From contig JAKPQE010000174.1 of assembly GCA_029572955.1 (NCBI GenBank), positions 1-42,698 on the forward strand: DNA of 42,698 bases, read 5' to 3'. Below are positions 10,663 through 31,877 of this stretch, one piece after another. The notes under the pieces are model-generated. The model saw only the letters and a program-made list of their open reading frames with translations, did not search any database and was not told the origin of the DNA. Made by a program: the position numbers and the translations under genes. The first letter of the stretch is position 1. Each line of letters opens with the position of its first letter. Source of the stretch: Pseudomonadota bacterium. Its GTDB lineage: Bacteria; Pseudomonadota; Alphaproteobacteria; Rhizobiales; JAKPQE01.

Positions 10663-11622
10663 TCACTTGATGAGGCCGACTTCCTTGTAATAGCGCTCGG
10701 CGCCCGGATGCAGCGGCAGCGGCATGCCGTTGAGGGCGTTCTCGGCCTTGATCGCCTTGGCGGCGCCATGGGCGGCGACGAGGCGGTCGAGATTGGCGTA
10801 GAGCTGCTTGGTCATCTGGTAGACCGTCTCCTCGGGCACGTCGGCCTGGGTGACGAGGAAGTTGACGACCGCGGCGGTCGGAACGTCGGCGTCCTGGCCG
10901 CGATAGGTGCCGGCCGGGATGGTCGCGGTGATGTACGGCGCGCCGATCTTCTCGACGAGGTCGGACGGCACCGAGACGACGGTGATGTCGTTGGTGGTGG
11001 CGAGGTCGCGGATCGAGGCGACGCCGAGGCCGGCCGACTGCAGGGTCGCGTCGAGCTGGCGGTTCTTCATCAGTTCGACCGACTCGGCGAAGGGCAGATA
11101 CTCGGTCTTGCCGAGGTCGTCATAGCTCATGCCGGCGGCTCCGAAGATGGTGCGGGCATTGAGCTCGGTGCCGGACTTCGGGGCGCCGACGGAAAGGCTC
11201 TTGCCCTTCAGGTCGGCGAGCGTCGCGATGCCGGAATCCTTGGTGGCGACGAGCTGGATGTAGTTCGGATAGATGGCGGCGAGGCCGCGCAGCTTGTCGA
11301 GCTTGCCCTTGAAGCCGGCCTCGGTGTTGCCTTCCCAGCCGAGCTTGACGGAATCGCCGAGGGCGAAGGCGAGTTCGCCGCGGCCCTGCTGCAGCAGATT
11401 GAGGTTCTCGACGGACGCCTTGGTCGACTGCACCTGGGCGCGGGCGCCCTCGATGTTGTCGTTGTAGATCTGCGACAGGGCGACGCCGAGCGGGTAGTAC
11501 ACGCCCGACGTGCCGCCGGTCAGGATGTTGATGAACTGCTCGGCCTTGGCGACCGGAGCGGCGGCCAGCATGGCGGTCGCAACCGCGCCGAAAAGTACCT
11601 TTCTTGCCAAACCCTTGTGCAT
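10663..11622 (-). CDS. TAXI-family TRAP transporter solute-binding protein
   Basis: 319 residues. The signal peptide is clear (MHKGLARKVLFGAVATAMLAAAPVAKAEQ, cleavage after AKA near residue 27). The mature start has the TAXI hallmark ILTGGTSGVYYPLG, and the family segments follow (LNLLQQGRGELAFALGDS, VGAPKSGTELNARTIFGAAG). It delivers substrate in the periplasm to the fused permease 105 bases downstream. The ATG at 11622 is preceded by AGGAGG at ideal distance, so much longer upstream ORF versions are not used. It is the first gene of the operon and diverges from the SulP gene. Confidence 0.93.
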   Translation of the reverse strand: MHKGLARKVLFGAVATAMLAAAPVAKAEQFINILTGGTSGVYYPLGVALSQIYNDNIEGARAQVQSTKASVENLNLLQQGRGELAFALGDSVKLGWEGNTEAGFKGKLDKLRGLAAIYPNYIQLVATKDSGIATLADLKGKSLSVGAPKSGTELNARTIFGAAGMSYDDLGKTEYLPFAESVELMKNRQLDATLQSAGLGVASIRDLATTNDITVVSVPSDLVEKIGAPYITATIPAGTYRGQDADVPTAAVVNFLVTQADVPEETVYQMTKQLYANLDRLVAAHGAAKAIKAENALNGMPLPLHPGAERYYKEVGLIK

Positions 11623-11839
11623 GAATGCCTCCTGTTTCGCGGCTCCGTTGCTGTTCGGGAGTTCGCGGACGTTGACGCCGTCGCGGCGCCGGGCCCGGTC
11701 CGTGGCGGACGGGGGAATGTCCGGCGGCCGGTTTCTACGACGATGGAATAAGAACCGATCCCGGATGGCTCGGCAAGGCCGGAAGACGGGATTGGACAGC
11801 GGTGCTGTCATTTTTCCGCGACGGCCAAAAAAACCCGGC

Positions 11840-27005: not shown

Positions 27006-27833
27006 TTATTTCGCAGGCTCGGCCGCGGCGCAGAAGGTCGCGACGGCCGCGGCGATCGCGGCCTGGAAGCGGGCCCGGTAGCCGGCGTCCTCGAGGTCGG
27101 TTTCCTCGGCGCGGTTGAGGATGACGCCGACCTCGACGAGAACGGCCGGGACGGGCGCGTTCTTCAGGACGGCGAGGCCGTCGTGGCGGAAGACGCCGTT
27201 CTCGGCATCGACGATCGGGCGGTTCTCGCCGGGGATCGCCTCGGCGTGGTGGAGGCTGGCGCGAAAGCCGTCCGCCTGCAGGCTGCGGCCGATCGTGCGG
27301 GCGAGGTCGACGCTGCGGCCATAGGCGCCGCCGCGGTTCGAGACGAACAGCGAATAGCCGCGAAAGAGATCGCTGTAGGGGCGCTCCGTGCCGCGATCGG
27401 ACCATCTGGAGAGATATTGCGGCTGGACGGAATCGTGGTGAATCGACAAGAGGATACCCTCGCCGAGGGTGCGGATCTCGGCGGCGCGCTCCTTCAGCGT
27501 GAGGTCGGCGCCGGCGGCATTGAGGATGCGCACCGGGCCGATGCCGCCGGCCTCGAGCACCTTTGCGAGCTCCTGGGCGAAGCGCCGGTTGAACCGGTAT
27601 TCGGCCTTGCCGCGGGCGCTCGTCGCGCCGTGGCGGCCGGGCGAGTGGCCGATGTCGAGGGTGACGGCCGGCCCGCAGCCATTGGCAAGGACCGGCACGT
27701 CCGGGAAGGCGGCGACAAGGGCGGCGAGGGCGCAGGCGGCGAGCGCCCGCGACAGCCGGCCGGCGATGGCGTGCCGCCCGGTGGTGCGCCGCTCAGTCCC
27801 TGAGGGCGCGCAGGTAGGCGATCTGGCTGACAT
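27006..27833 (-). CDS. N-acetylmuramoyl-L-alanine amidase (Amidase_3)
   Basis: 275 residues. It cleaves the amide bond between muramic acid and the peptide in peptidoglycan. Amidase_3 zinc and catalytic residues are visible: LDIGHSPGRHG (His), GKAEYRFN (Glu), LLSIHHDSVQ (His) and VLVEVGVILNRAEE (catalytic Glu). A hydrophobic stretch RALAACALAALVAAFPDVPVLA before the domain suits a signal peptide with a long n-region. The start is uncertain. ATG 27833 overlaps the caspase gene by 41 bases, ATG 27857 and 27863 are earlier, and no ATG, GTG or TTG lies nearer the signal sequence. The overlap implies co-translation with the caspase-like protein. Confidence 0.85.
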   Translation of the reverse strand: MSARSPTCAPSGTERRTTGRHAIAGRLSRALAACALAALVAAFPDVPVLANGCGPAVTLDIGHSPGRHGATSARGKAEYRFNRRFAQELAKVLEAGGIGPVRILNAAGADLTLKERAAEIRTLGEGILLSIHHDSVQPQYLSRWSDRGTERPYSDLFRGYSLFVSNRGGAYGRSVDLARTIGRSLQADGFRASLHHAEAIPGENRPIVDAENGVFRHDGLAVLKNAPVPAVLVEVGVILNRAEETDLEDAGYRARFQAAIAAAVATFCAAAEPAK

Positions 27834-29352
27834 ACTGTTCTTCGAGGCAGCCGACATCGGCACCGCAGGATTCGCGCCGCTTCAGCCAGGCACGCTGGGT
27901 GGTGCGGACGCTGTCGCGGAAGCTCTTGGAACCGCTGGCGCGCTTCTCCTTGTAGACATCGGTGAGTTCGACATCGAGGGCGGCGAGACGGGCCGAGCCG
28001 CAGATCGCGATCTCGTCGGGCTTGAAGGCGCGGGCGCAATCGAAGCTCGGCCTGATGTCGACGGGCGCCGGCGGCGCGGGCGGGGCCGAGAGGGCATCGA
28101 TGCGCAGCCGGGCGAGGGCGGCGAAATCGCCGTTCGGGTATTTGTCGAGATAGCTGCGATAGGCCGCGATGTCGCTGCTCTCGGCGATGGCGTTCCAATA
28201 GGCGATCTCGACGGCCTTTTCCTGCGCGGCCATGCCGCCCATGCCGGTCATGCCGCCGGCAGGCTCGTCGCTGCGCGAGGCGCTCGTCAGCTCGTCGATC
28301 TTGACGCGGGCGAGGGCGGCGAATTCGCCGTCCGGATAGCGCCGGAGGTATTCCTCGAAGCTCGCGGCGCTGCGGCTCGACAGGATCGAGTTCCAGAAGG
28401 TGAGTTCGATCATGCGGTCGTCGGGCGCCGTCATGCCGCCCATCAGGCCCACGGCAGCTGCGCCGGTCCCGGGAGTGCCCGGCACGAGGGCGAAGTCGGT
28501 GGTGATCTCGTCGTAATAGGCGGGCCGCTGGTCGTGGGACACGGTGCGGCCGAGGTCCTGCACGTCGCGGCGCACCCTGCGGGCCATCTCGGAAAGTGAG
28601 ATGCCGGGCTGGGCAATGAGCGGCAAGAGGCTGCGGGTGAAGACCGAGTTGGGGCTGCCGTCGCCTGCGCCGAGGCCGTCGAGGGCGGTCTGTCCGGCGG
28701 CGGCGGAATACATGATGAAGGAGCCTTCCGGGGTCGCCATGCGGGCAAGACCGCGGATGTCGCCGACGGTCCGCGTGCCCTCCTGGGCGAAGGGATTGTC
28801 GCGGCAGGCGTCGAGAATGAGGATGGCGACGCGGGCGCCCTTCGACTGGATCGCCTGCAGGATCTCGTCGGCGGCGATCGCCTCGGAGGTCACCAGCGTT
28901 TCCTGGCCCGGCCGGGCGGCCGGGATGTCGCGCGGCAGGAGATAGTTGCGGTTGGCGATGCGCACGCCGTGGCCGGCATAGAAGAAGAGGGCGGTGTCGC
29001 CGACCTCGATACCGTTGAGGAAGCGCTGGAAGGCCTCGTTGAACTCGCGGCGCGGCAGGTCGATGCCGCGCAGGACCGTGAAGCCGATCCGCTCCAGCGC
29101 ATCGCCCATCGCCGCGGCATCGTTGGCCGCCTTGGCAAGGCGCGGCACGCTCTCATAGGCGTCGATGCCGACGACGAATGCGTCCTTCTTCGCCGCCAGG
29201 GCCGGGGCGGCCATGACGAGGAGGACGGTGACGGCAAGGACCGCGGCGAGGATGCCGCCGTCGGCCCGGCGCGTCTTTACCGGCGCGCAATTCCATTCCC
29301 TCGCCGGTCCGCTACTGCGGTCCGACGTCTTCGCCCACAAAGATAACGACAC
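27793..29352 (-). CDS. Secreted caspase-like (C14) protein with repeats and LprI-like tail
   Basis: 519 residues in four parts. A signal or anchor segment (about 33-54, ILAAVLAVTVLLVMAAPALAA) is followed by a caspase/metacaspase p20-like domain with catalytic H128 (FFYAGHG) and C183 (LDACRDNP). Two 40-residue repeats come next, each with the pattern E-x2-(F/Y)WN-x-I-x2-S-x5-YL-x2-YP-x-G-x-FAALAR-x-(K/R)ID-x-L. The four-cysteine C-terminal domain (FDCA, IAICGS, ESCGADVGCLEEQ) resembles DUF1311/LprI, a lysozyme-inhibitor-like family. It is probably periplasmic. The start is GTG at 29352, with no good ribosome-binding site, so a shorter form is possible. It overlaps the amidase gene. Its substrate is unknown. 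Confidence 0.88.
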   Translation of the reverse strand: MSLSLWAKTSDRSSGPAREWNCAPVKTRRADGGILAAVLAVTVLLVMAAPALAAKKDAFVVGIDAYESVPRLAKAANDAAAMGDALERIGFTVLRGIDLPRREFNEAFQRFLNGIEVGDTALFFYAGHGVRIANRNYLLPRDIPAARPGQETLVTSEAIAADEILQAIQSKGARVAILILDACRDNPFAQEGTRTVGDIRGLARMATPEGSFIMYSAAAGQTALDGLGAGDGSPNSVFTRSLLPLIAQPGISLSEMARRVRRDVQDLGRTVSHDQRPAYYDEITTDFALVPGTPGTGAAAVGLMGGMTAPDDRMIELTFWNSILSSRSAASFEEYLRRYPDGEFAALARVKIDELTSASRSDEPAGGMTGMGGMAAQEKAVEIAYWNAIAESSDIAAYRSYLDKYPNGDFAALARLRIDALSAPPAPPAPVDIRPSFDCARAFKPDEIAICGSARLAALDVELTDVYKEKRASGSKSFRDSVRTTQRAWLKRRESCGADVGCLEEQYVSQIAYLRALRD

Positions 29353-29537: not shown

Positions 29538-30053
29538 TCAGTCTTCCGACTGGCCGGGGAAGGCGGCGGCGAGGCGGCTCATGTGAGCGGCGACCGGGTT
29601 TTCGGCGGCCGGCTTCTCGCCCGGCTCCTCGTCGTAGATCAGGCCGTCGAGGTGGCGCACCCGCTCCTGCAGGCGCACGGAACGCTCGATGAGGTCGCGG
29701 AAGTCGGTCGGCAGTTCGTCCCAGCCGGGACCCGACATCGCCGAGGACAGACGGTTGAGGCGGACCTTGTTCTTTTCCTGACCGGCCTGCTCGGCGGTCA
29801 TCTCGCCTTCGTTGACGGCGCGCTGGAGCAGCAGCCAGGAGGCGATCTGCATCAGTCGCGTGGTCAGCCGCATGCTTTCGGTGGCGTAGGTCAGCGAGGC
29901 GGGACGCGGCAGGTCGCGGGACTCGTCGCGGCCGCGGCCGTCGAGATAGGAGGCGGTCTCCTCGACGAGCGCCATGCCCTCGCGAAAGAGCGTCCGGAAG
30001 TTCTCCGAACCGGCCAGCTTTTCGCCGAAGCGAACGGTTTCCATACCCGACAT
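29538..30053 (-). CDS. rcdA: RcdA, CtrA-degradation adaptor (DUF1465)
   Basis: 171 residues. DUF1465 proteins include Caulobacter RcdA, a helical-bundle adaptor that helps deliver the cell-cycle regulator CtrA and other substrates to ClpXP. The conserved block is EGMALVEETASYLDGRGRDESRDLPRPASLTYATESMRLTTRLMQIASWLLLQRAVNEGEM. The disordered acidic tail (after about 140) is also typical. ATG 30053 is chosen (ATG 30044 is also possible), and in-frame codons upstream to 30125 lack family likeness. With CtrA boxes elsewhere in the window, the CtrA pathway is clearly present. It is likely cytoplasmic and may be transcribed on its own. Confidence 0.87.
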   Translation of the reverse strand: MSGMETVRFGEKLAGSENFRTLFREGMALVEETASYLDGRGRDESRDLPRPASLTYATESMRLTTRLMQIASWLLLQRAVNEGEMTAEQAGQEKNKVRLNRLSSAMSGPGWDELPTDFRDLIERSVRLQERVRHLDGLIYDEEPGEKPAAENPVAAHMSRLAAAFPGQSED

Positions 30054-30216
30054 ACCCGACCCCGTTTCACTCGTCCGATCGCGGCGGATGCCCCCACAGA
30101 TCGCCCCGGCCCGGAAGGCTCGCATGGTTGACGCCTTGCGTAAAGGGCCGAGGGGTCGTGCGCCAGAGGCAGGAAGGAGAATAGCCCGTAAGGGTTAACA
30201 GGCGGTCAGGAACGAC

Positions 30217-30245
30217 AAAAAAAGAGAGCCGCGCGAAGCGGCTCT
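30217..30245 (-). terminator. Strong leftward rho-independent terminator
   Basis: On the minus strand AGAGCCGC pairs with GCGGCTCT (plus-strand arms 30225-30232 and 30238-30245), with a five-base loop, and is followed after one C by TTTTTTT (30223-30217). It lies 290 bases past the TadG-like gene and 160 bases before the rcdA start. Confidence 0.9.
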
Positions 30246-30313
30246 AAGAAGTCAACAGGGAGGCGTCAAACAGAGTGGACAGGAGCCACTCGAAATCCAG
30301 ATGACTGGACAGC
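30217..30313 (-). ncRNA. Candidate small RNA with anti-Shine-Dalgarno loops, CtrA box at its promoter
   Basis: In the 480-base gap between the rcdA start and the TadG-like gene, the minus strand has, in order, a CtrA box (30349-30335), a TCTATT -10-like element (30325-30320), a stem-loop GAGTGG/CCACTC with loop CTCCTGT (30291-30273), a second pyrimidine stretch GCCTCCCTG near 30264, and a perfect terminator with seven T. CUCCU and CCUCCC are complementary to ribosome-binding sites. The architecture (two anti-SD motifs plus terminator, about 97 nt) recalls the alphaproteobacterial alpha-r14/suhB RNA family, but I cannot confirm homology. It might instead be a long 3' untranslated region of the TadG gene. 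Confidence 0.5.
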
Positions 30314-30334
30314 TTCAGTAATAGAGCGGAAAGC

Positions 30335-30349
30335 TTAACGAATGGTTAA
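30335..30349 (-). promoter_or_regulatory. Perfect CtrA box (TTAA-N7-TTAA)
   Basis: TTAA at 30335-30338 and 30346-30349 are separated by exactly seven bases. The motif is symmetrical in its half sites, and AT-rich sequence surrounds it. On the minus strand it would overlap the -35 region of a promoter with -10 at 30325-30320, the usual place for CtrA activation. Confidence 0.6.
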
Positions 30350-30533
30350 TTTCGCGAAAAACCAAACAAACTGAACGAATTTTTTAGTATACGAGGACGT
30401 CGTCCGGTATAGAACGAAGCAAACGGTGCGCTACTGCTTTGCCGAAAAGACGGCGTCGCGGCGCCCGAATCGCCCCCAGGTTGTCCTATCAAGCCATTGA
30501 TGCGACTTCAGATTTCATGGTGCCGCCGGGGCC

Positions 30534-31877
30534 TCAATTGACCAGGCGCAGGTGCTCTTTCTCGATCTCGTCGAGAATGTCGAGGGCAGCCTTTTCGATT
30601 TCCGCCGGCGAGGCGGCGTTGTAGACGAAATCCGGATTGGAGGCGCAGCTCGTCATGTTGTCGAGGATGTGCGGCTTCAGTTCCTTTTCGATGTAGGTGT
30701 AGCGCGGTTCGTCGGCGTCGGGGCTGATCGAGGGCACCAGATAGTCGACGTTGAGCGTCATGATGTTCTGCTTCTTGGCCTTCAGCTCGCCGCAGGCCGA
30801 CGCGTTGAAGCCCTGGATCGTCTCGAAGCTGTTGTTGATGTCGTAGGGCGCCTTCATCACGAAATTCGGGTCGCAGCGGGCCGCGACATAGGGCGGGCCC
30901 GGCACCGGCGCGGTGTAGTACTGGGTCGAGTTCTCGACGCCGTCGGTGATGAGGACGGTGAAGATGCGACGCTTGCTCGTCGACGTGCCGTCGCCGCTTT
31001 CGATGGCGGTCCGGGCGAATTGCTCGATGGCGTAGCGGGTGTTGGTGCCGCCCTGGTAGAGGTCGCTGCTGATCTCGAGGCTGCCGACGGCGACCTTGGC
31101 GAGCGCGATGTTGGTCGAGGGCGCAAACAGCGTCGCGAGGCTGTTGCTGAAAGTGTAGACCGCGACCTGATACTGCTGGCTGTTGGCGCGCTGGGCCTCG
31201 ATCCGGTCGAGGACCTTGAGGATCGCGTTGCGGGCGACGTCGATCCGCAGCGTCGCGCCGCTCGCCCGGGCGCCCGGATAGGTGAAGGGCGTGCCATAGA
31301 TGTCCTGGTAGTGGCAGGCGATGGTGCAGGTCGTCGCATCCATCAGGGTCTGCTGGTCGGTGGCGGTCGCGCCGATGCCCATCGACTGCGAGATGTCGAC
31401 GAGGAAGTTGATCTGGACATAGCCGGGCAGGGCGTTGCTCGCGGTCGCCGAGCCGGCGATCCCGGCGGCATCGAAGCCGGCGAGGTGCCCGAAATAGGTC
31501 TTCGAGGCCCCCTTGTAGTTCACCGTGACGCTGATCGAGGTGGCGGTCCGGTCCATCGCGAAGGTCGGCGCTTCCGCCGTCACGCCGGCTATATTGGCGA
31601 GATTCGTCTGGAAGAACGTGGTGCCGACCTTCTCGGCCTCGCGCTGCCAGGCGCGATCGCCGGCGGTCGGATTGGTGCTGACATAGTCGCTCGCCGCCTT
31701 GACGGCCGCGAGGGCGGCGGCGTCGGCGGCGTTGGCGACCTTCAGGCGGCTGCTGTAGACGGTGCCGTAGTCGACGGCCATGCCGATGCCGAGGAGGATA
31801 GGTGCCAATGCGACGGCAAAGATGACGGCGGCGGTGCCGGTGCGGTCCTTGCGAAAGCGCTGAAGGGTATTCTTCAT
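30534..31877 (-). CDS. TadG-like protein with von Willebrand A domain
   Basis: 447 residues. The N-terminus has the TadE/TadG-type membrane segment RFRKDRTGTAAVIFAVALAPILLGIGMAVDYGTVYSSRLKVANAADAAALAA, which anchors Flp-pilus-associated pseudopilin-like proteins. A von Willebrand factor A domain follows with a metal-ion-dependent adhesion motif DISQSMG (about residue 155). Several cysteine pairs lie in the second half. TadG proteins are envelope components of tight-adherence systems, but no other tad/cpa gene is in the window. The ATG at 31877 gives a typical start. The ORF extends much further upstream but without family likeness. Confidence 0.85.
   Translation of the reverse strand: MKNTLQRFRKDRTGTAAVIFAVALAPILLGIGMAVDYGTVYSSRLKVANAADAAALAAVKAASDYVSTNPTAGDRAWQREAEKVGTTFFQTNLANIAGVTAEAPTFAMDRTATSISVTVNYKGASKTYFGHLAGFDAAGIAGSATASNALPGYVQINFLVDISQSMGIGATATDQQTLMDATTCTIACHYQDIYGTPFTYPGARASGATLRIDVARNAILKVLDRIEAQRANSQQYQVAVYTFSNSLATLFAPSTNIALAKVAVGSLEISSDLYQGGTNTRYAIEQFARTAIESGDGTSTSKRRIFTVLITDGVENSTQYYTAPVPGPPYVAARCDPNFVMKAPYDINNSFETIQGFNASACGELKAKKQNIMTLNVDYLVPSISPDADEPRYTYIEKELKPHILDNMTSCASNPDFVYNAASPAEIEKAALDILDEIEKEHLRLVN

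Follow-up and report, generated by a model that had tools for sequence, protein, structure and literature searches.

Several described small RNAs (sRNAs) offer points of comparison for the locus examined here; the accounts of them below follow excerpts of the cited papers. CcnA of Caulobacter crescentus is presumably a CtrA-activated noncoding RNA, with a C-rich loop and a proposed action at ribosome-binding sites, and it differs from the present RNA in its location at the origin of replication and in setting CCCC against GGGG (PMC8959179). When likened by description, CcnA appears to be the nearest functional parallel. In Sinorhizobium meliloti, AbcR1/2 and NfeR1 silence mRNAs through anti-Shine-Dalgarno motifs placed in unpaired regions; AbcR1/2 use a pair of these motifs against transport and metabolism mRNAs, and differential expression is said to account largely for their specificity (PMC8844928). 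AbcR1/AbcR2 are distinct in being driven by LsrB and RpoH1, and their motifs are CUCCUCCC and UUCCCCUC (PMC8844928). SorX, which inhibits potA translation, is distinct in being processed from the RSP_0847 3' end (PMC9438474). SorX (RF02784) and suhB/mmgR (RF00519) share with the present RNA a CCUCCCU stretch ahead of a GC-rich terminator. The EcpR1 gene is located by divK-pleD. Compared by description, EcpR1 is a cell-cycle sRNA of Rhizobiales (PMC4414408) that represses dnaA and gcrA (PMC7143759), and it differs in being rpmG-adjacent (PMC12403871) and ppGpp-induced (PMC7143759).

The RNA examined here belongs to BjrC1505 (RF02356), a family whose Rfam entry states no function and which is named in a table of Herbaspirillum RNAs (excerpt of PMC6337395). 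In open-licence PMC papers, we found no link of BjrC1505 to CtrA or rcdA in print; within that literature, the upstream CtrA-like box, the linkage to rcdA and the relatives scoring under the Rfam cut-off are new for the family.

Identity and Layout of the sRNA Locus

In the window, that is, the whole stretch of DNA analysed (42.7 kb), positions 30219-30358(-) matched RF02356 with 101 bits against a gathering cut-off of 50, over the full length of the model (1-140 of 140). At gathering scores, Rfam gave no other match in the window, and the genome carries one BjrC1505 copy. An earlier note on this DNA had proposed a candidate sRNA whose resemblance to suhB was structural only, and had named a covariance search with RF00519 as a check. 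That search gave 24.7 bits (E 0.0036), which is more than a structural likeness, yet below the cut-off of 41, and RF02356 matched instead; the SorX model scored 19.8 bits, below its cut-off of 46.6. The proposal was right in that a CtrA-like box, a -10 element, structured C/U loops and a terminator make up an sRNA gene beside rcdA, but the family is not new. The hairpins, the CCUCCC core and the terminator of RF02356 are all present in the window, as judged from the model alignment and from an alignment of 66 sequences. The start of the 140-nt model precedes that of the predicted transcript, and the CtrA-like box is aligned with the model consensus UUuACggccuAUUaA. On these alignments, the predicted sRNA gene at 30217-30349 is a real one and a member of a known alphaproteobacterial family.

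The TTAA-N7-TTAA box, the TATTAC element, three hairpins, two C/U-rich loops and the terminator succeed one another on the minus strand (Table 1), where both the sequence and the fold place them; the earlier note had given the box, the -10-like element, one stem-loop, a second C/U stretch and the terminator in the same order. Its estimate of a 95-100 nt transcript agrees with our prediction, and the claimed adjacency to rcdA was borne out by the Pfam match of the neighbouring ORF. The second C/U stretch, GACGCCTCCCTGTTGAC, occupies 30267-30251(-) within the core; the terminator stem spans 30245-30225, and TTTTTTT lies at 30223-30217. The region is flanked by a Tad/VWA ORF (stop at 30534), upstream of the sRNA on the same strand, and by the DUF1465 RcdA-family ORF. 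In the ORF at 27793-29352(-), which adjoins rcdA, a match to an LprI domain comes after a caspase-like Peptidase_C14 domain.

Table 1. Features of the BjrC1505 locus in the window (DNA positions; basis of each assignment in the last column).
Feature	Position	Strand	Basis
CtrA-like box TTAACCATTCGTTAA	30335..30349	-	perfect TTAA-N7-TTAA, unique in window; conserved in place
-10-like element TATTAC	30318..30323	-	begins 26 nt past box start; logo and offset counts
Predicted BjrC1505-family sRNA transcript, about 95 nt, inferred 5' end	30217..30311	-	RF02356 101 bits over 30219-30358; R1 model 96.2 bits over 30219-30311
Hairpin 1, GUCCAG-UCAU-CUGGAU	30295..30310	-	fold; covariation helices 1 and 2
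Hairpin 2, GAGTGG-CTCCTGT-CCACTC (DNA letters)	30273..30291	-	fold; covariation helix 3
First putative anti-Shine-Dalgarno motif CUCCUGU, loop of hairpin 2	30279-30285	-	
Conserved core UUUGACGCCUCCCUGUUGAC with second putative anti-Shine-Dalgarno motif	30251..30270	-	Rfam alignment, fold, 66-sequence alignment
Intrinsic terminator, 8-bp stem and U-tract	30217..30245	-	fold; covariation helix 4
rcdA-family gene (DUF1465), start codon uncertain	29538..30125	-	PF07323 203 bits; conserved downstream neighbour

Fold and C/U-Rich Motifs

The computed fold of 30216-30329(-) had an energy of -34.6 kcal/mol (z -3.25), and none of 200 shuffles was as stable. In the 66-sequence alignment, 92.8% of cells were paired and 15 of the 19 pairs showed both-sided changes, which 0/500 shuffles matched; when the partners were slid as a control, pairing fell to 36-56%. 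Both-sided changes occurred in all 6 pairs of helix 3 (hairpin 2), and 95.7% of the cells of helix 4, the terminator stem, were paired. RNAalifold alone proposed 12 pairs, 9 of them with double changes. These data support the predicted three-hairpin fold by covariation. In the same prediction, the CCUCCC of the core lies in the loop of a weak hairpin.

The two anti-Shine-Dalgarno motifs put forward in the earlier note, and their conservation in relatives, fared differently. The exact CUCCUGU loop was found in 22 of 30 order-level loci, in 57/114 named loci among the matches listed and in none of 20 class-level loci, and this motif is therefore not general. The second motif, CCUCCCUGU, is the better conserved of the two: the core GA[CT]GCCTCCCTGT is present in all of the 30 best-scoring order loci. 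The CCUCCC core is thus wider in occurrence than CUCCUGU, yet it also varies in weaker relatives, and its invariance in A1 is partly a matter of ascertainment, as 118 loci were fetched by the core motif and core-less loci were dropped (10/177). Four rhizobial-type loci (L498-L501) have CTCCCTGTTTTACC at the core together with perfect CtrA-like boxes and an adjacent rcdA, and in L498-L500 the core is altered to UUUUUCUCCCUGUUUUACC. In one genome (G018) there are two copies, L508 and L509; each has a perfect box, and their cores differ from one another directly beyond CCTCC. The putative pairing sequence is thus not fixed.

Distribution and Related RNAs

RF02356 matched 51 of 61 genomes (the genome studied, one of its family and the rest of its order, which from the named matches is presumably Rhizobiales), 45 of them over the cut-off. 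In the class sample, 30/289 genomes matched, 14 over the cut-off, while 0/14 control genomes matched, including Caulobacter vibrioides, which does match RcdA. The R1 model, built on 66 sequences that cover the predicted transcript and not the promoter, matched 91 of the 289 class-sample genomes. This figure overstates BjrC1505, since several RNA types are mixed among the R1 matches of less than about 40 bits; part of the 91 come from other RNAs that have CCUCCCU and a terminator in common. In the phylum sample, 52/299 genomes matched, and the single one outside the class was a genome with 8% contamination. A scan of named genomes with the core pattern yielded at least 118 stretches, and among the matches listed were Bradyrhizobium, Rhodopseudomonas, Mesorhizobium, Phyllobacterium, Bosea, Roseibium, Devosia and Sneathiella. 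L498 (40.2 bits) and L501 (34.8 bits) are BjrC1505 relatives under the Rfam cut-off. L056 (17.0 bits), L058 (16.4 bits) and a second G001 copy, L515 (15.6 bits), look like chance matches. L255 is SorX according to Rfam, the sole fetched copy over the SorX cut-off, and has no CtrA box (5/8).

A second recurrent sRNA type was also observed, with a hairpin like ACGUCUCCCAGACGU, next AAGCCUCCCUGU, and then a terminator (L204, L258, L260, L262, L263, L270, L272, L274, L276, L278, L279, L282, L283, L287 and L288). A box of 7/8 was present in one of these 15 loci (L204). The two that were scored at low threshold stayed under the Rfam cut-offs, namely L279 (SorX 41.2 of 46.6, suhB 40.6 of 41) and L258 (SorX 37.1 bits, suhB 32.2 bits).

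CtrA-Like Box and Promoter

The perfect TTAA-N7-TTAA box noticed earlier proved to be the single perfect match in the window, and 0/100 dinucleotide shuffles gave one. In 161 loci, 150 nt or more of sequence preceded the core; the best match to TTAA-N7-TTAA within 95 nt scored at least 7/8 in 158 of them, as compared with 10.9% of shuffles of the same stretches. The earlier note had named a lack of conservation of box and loops in close relatives as a refutation; the box came through this check, while the CUCCUGU loop is confined to part of the loci. The box started at -88 to -75 of the core, a single 14-nt bin, in 148/162 loci; the other bins held 0-3 loci each from -340 to -103, 11 at -102 to -89 and 5 at -74 to -61. 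The box-aligned logo of 154 distinct sequences read TTAAC-N5-GTTAAGC-TTT with a TATTAC-like block at +26, with bases upstream of the box near background and the first half-site being TTTA in 29% of the sequences. An offset of 26 between the box and the -10 element was the commonest for 6/6, 5/6 and 4/6 TATTAC matches alike. We also inspected 44 weaker R1 matches, sorted by eye on their RNA part: 23 of the 25 BjrC1505-like ones reached 7/8 within 95 nt, and among the other 19 (15 of the second hairpin type, 2 SorX-like, 1 mmgR-like and 1 without core) a box of at least 7/8 occurred in L204 only.

With the Tad/VWA ORF preceding it on the same strand, the RNA might be read-through or a 3' product of that gene without a promoter of its own. 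The promoter-like block stands at a near-fixed distance from the RNA in 158/161 loci, which makes such an origin highly improbable.

The published CtrA consensus sequences, TAA-N7-TTAAC (PMC3616915) and TTAA-N7-TTAA (PMC12403871), both taken from excerpts, are matched by the conserved box, and we therefore infer that it is a putative CtrA binding site. CtrA is encoded in this genome (G000:C21:3353-3958, 85% identity to a typed CtrA query). Counted from the inferred start, the box would lie at about -38 to -24 and cover the -35 region, a position from which CtrA could also repress the RNA rather than activate it. No -35 hexamer apart from the box is evident in the logo, which would fit an activator-dependent promoter; we give repression little credence, and consider activation of the BjrC1505 gene by CtrA the better reading of the box.

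Linkage to rcdA

From 177 loci (L001-L177), 167 with core and terminator were kept and 10 dropped, and 140 of the 167 had at least 1200 nt downstream. RcdA was found by tblastn just downstream of the RNA in 126 of these 140 loci and was not found beside it in 14; 144/145 RcdA hits share the strand of the RNA, and rcdA usually lies 200-350 nt past the core. In the class sample, which overlaps loci L031-L059, RNA and PF07323 were searched separately and the best RNA match per genome was taken, own genome included. Among the 91 RNA-matching genomes, 30 had no RcdA match, and the other 61 had both. The two were at most 6 kb apart in 30 of these 61 genomes, all 30 with the RNA upstream on the same strand, whereas rcdA was not found within 6 kb of the RNA in 31/61, being elsewhere or on another contig. 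As 6 kb should be well under 1% of such genomes, the linkage is not a matter of chance. A repeat look at L289-L294, six rcdA loci whose genomes had no R1 match close to that gene, again gave no match. One genome (G269, locus L048) has two tandem RNA copies about 200 nt apart (cores at 79 and 279), upstream of rcdA.

This arrangement raises the question of whether the RNA serves rcdA in cis, as a leader or attenuator, with transcripts from the box either ending at the terminator or reading into the gene. The shared strand, including 30/30 near pairs, and the usual spacing would suit a leader, as would the strong terminator that separates box and gene. In L034-L036, however, rcdA is 42-46 kb off and the box, core and terminator persist, suggesting that the RNA unit can be an independent gene; further genomes with rcdA on another contig likewise keep all three. 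Two RNA copies occur in some genomes (G018, G269). Moreover, within 95 nt past the terminator, 42/160 loci show an additional box scoring 7 or 8, a count made without a shuffle control; this box is perhaps a site of rcdA itself, so that rcdA may often own one. We thus regard a leader function as improbable, and favour a separate RNA gene. Several start sites, together with a possible CtrA site, are reported for the agrobacterial rcdA gene (atu3742; excerpt of PMC10469942), and one of these start sites could belong to an RNA like that of L498-L501.

Search for Target mRNAs

Perfect complements of CCUCCCUGU were found 3-10 nt before ATG at 79 sites in 20 genomes, whereas the reversed pattern gave 9. 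By eye, many of these genes resembled periplasmic binding proteins. As a Shine-Dalgarno-matched control, we used the same GGGAGG with CAA replacing ACA (148 sites). The test set comprised the 77 distinct places of the 79 sites, all fetched, with an ORF of at least 80 aa at 62, and the control set comprised 90 of the 148 sites, chosen by the analyst, with such an ORF at 74. Transport genes were recognised by eye and with a crude hydrophobicity score rather than with Pfam. Hydrophobic N-termini were at least as frequent in the control (45/74 ORFs) as at the core complements (31/62 ORFs), suggesting that they reflect strong ribosome sites of these genomes and not specific targeting. The apparent signal for transporter mRNAs as specific targets was thus removed by the control. 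In these 20 genomes, genes with GGGAGG ribosome sites look rich, by eye, in periplasmic solute-binding proteins with either preceding triplet. The median pairing with the core was -23.8 kcal/mol at test sites and -19.9 kcal/mol at control sites, the former being stronger by construction, and protein clusters among the test sites had 4, 4, 3, 3 and 2 members.

The ctrA mRNA was rejected as a direct target, as its leader in the own genome pairs weakly with the core (-12.3 kcal/mol, accessibility ignored), less strongly than the medians of both site sets. Over 27 ctrA leaders, own included, the median was -16.8 and the best -24.2 kcal/mol, figures that are approximate for relatives as the core of the window was used throughout; GGGGATTGGC-ATG was present in 9/27 and GGGG at most 20 nt from the start in 21/27. 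The own rcdA leader gave -21.7 against the core over a longer, 100-nt stretch, which is not comparable with the ctrA figure. The complement of the first loop, ACAGGAG-N4-10-ATG, had 42 sites in this genome as compared with 8 for the reversed pattern. One of the 42 lies in the window, at 11620-11635(-), before an ATG.

Since target specificity could not be shown, the RNA might mainly titrate Hfq or another protein, with C/U motifs that are not mRNA seeds; the conserved stretch also exceeds the length that an anti-Shine-Dalgarno seed requires. On the other hand, the CCUCCCU stretch and terminator are common to SorX and suhB/mmgR, and the reported effect of SorX on potA is an inhibition of translation (excerpt of PMC9438474). 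We consider titration unlikely as the main role, and anti-Shine-Dalgarno pairing with mRNAs the better account of the C/U motifs.

Discussion

The reading that we consider likely is that BjrC1505 RNA is a CtrA-activated, trans-acting anti-Shine-Dalgarno sRNA resembling AbcR, NfeR1 and SorX. CtrA~P, the alphaproteobacterial cell-cycle regulator, would probably activate the gene from the box, so that high CtrA would give the terminated RNA of about 95 nt. This RNA would present CCUCCC, and in many relatives CUCCUGU as well, in hairpin loops, which most likely would pair with purine-rich ribosome-binding sites of mRNAs and lower their translation. The predicted action is that of AbcR1/2, NfeR1 and SorX, but gated by the cell cycle. 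The adjacency to rcdA, whose product helps degrade CtrA, probably reflects common CtrA control; a feedback through RcdA, as suggested in the earlier note, may also exist.

A broader and more tentative idea is that BjrC1505 may serve the CtrA network of Alphaproteobacteria as an ancestral post-transcriptional arm. CtrA would then co-activate rcdA, its own destruction adaptor, and an RNA that brakes the translation of mRNAs whose purine-rich ribosome sites are strong. If so, uptake and growth genes would be damped in one cell-cycle phase, and BjrC1505 and Caulobacter CcnA would be independent counterparts. An Rfam family without stated function, present in 51 of the 61 order-level genomes sampled, gains a promoter logic and a conserved neighbourhood. 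In the literature consulted here, control of translation by the CtrA circuit is addressed with CcnA in Caulobacter; should CtrA prove to control BjrC1505, a single RNA and a single promoter mutation would allow such translational control to be probed class-wide.
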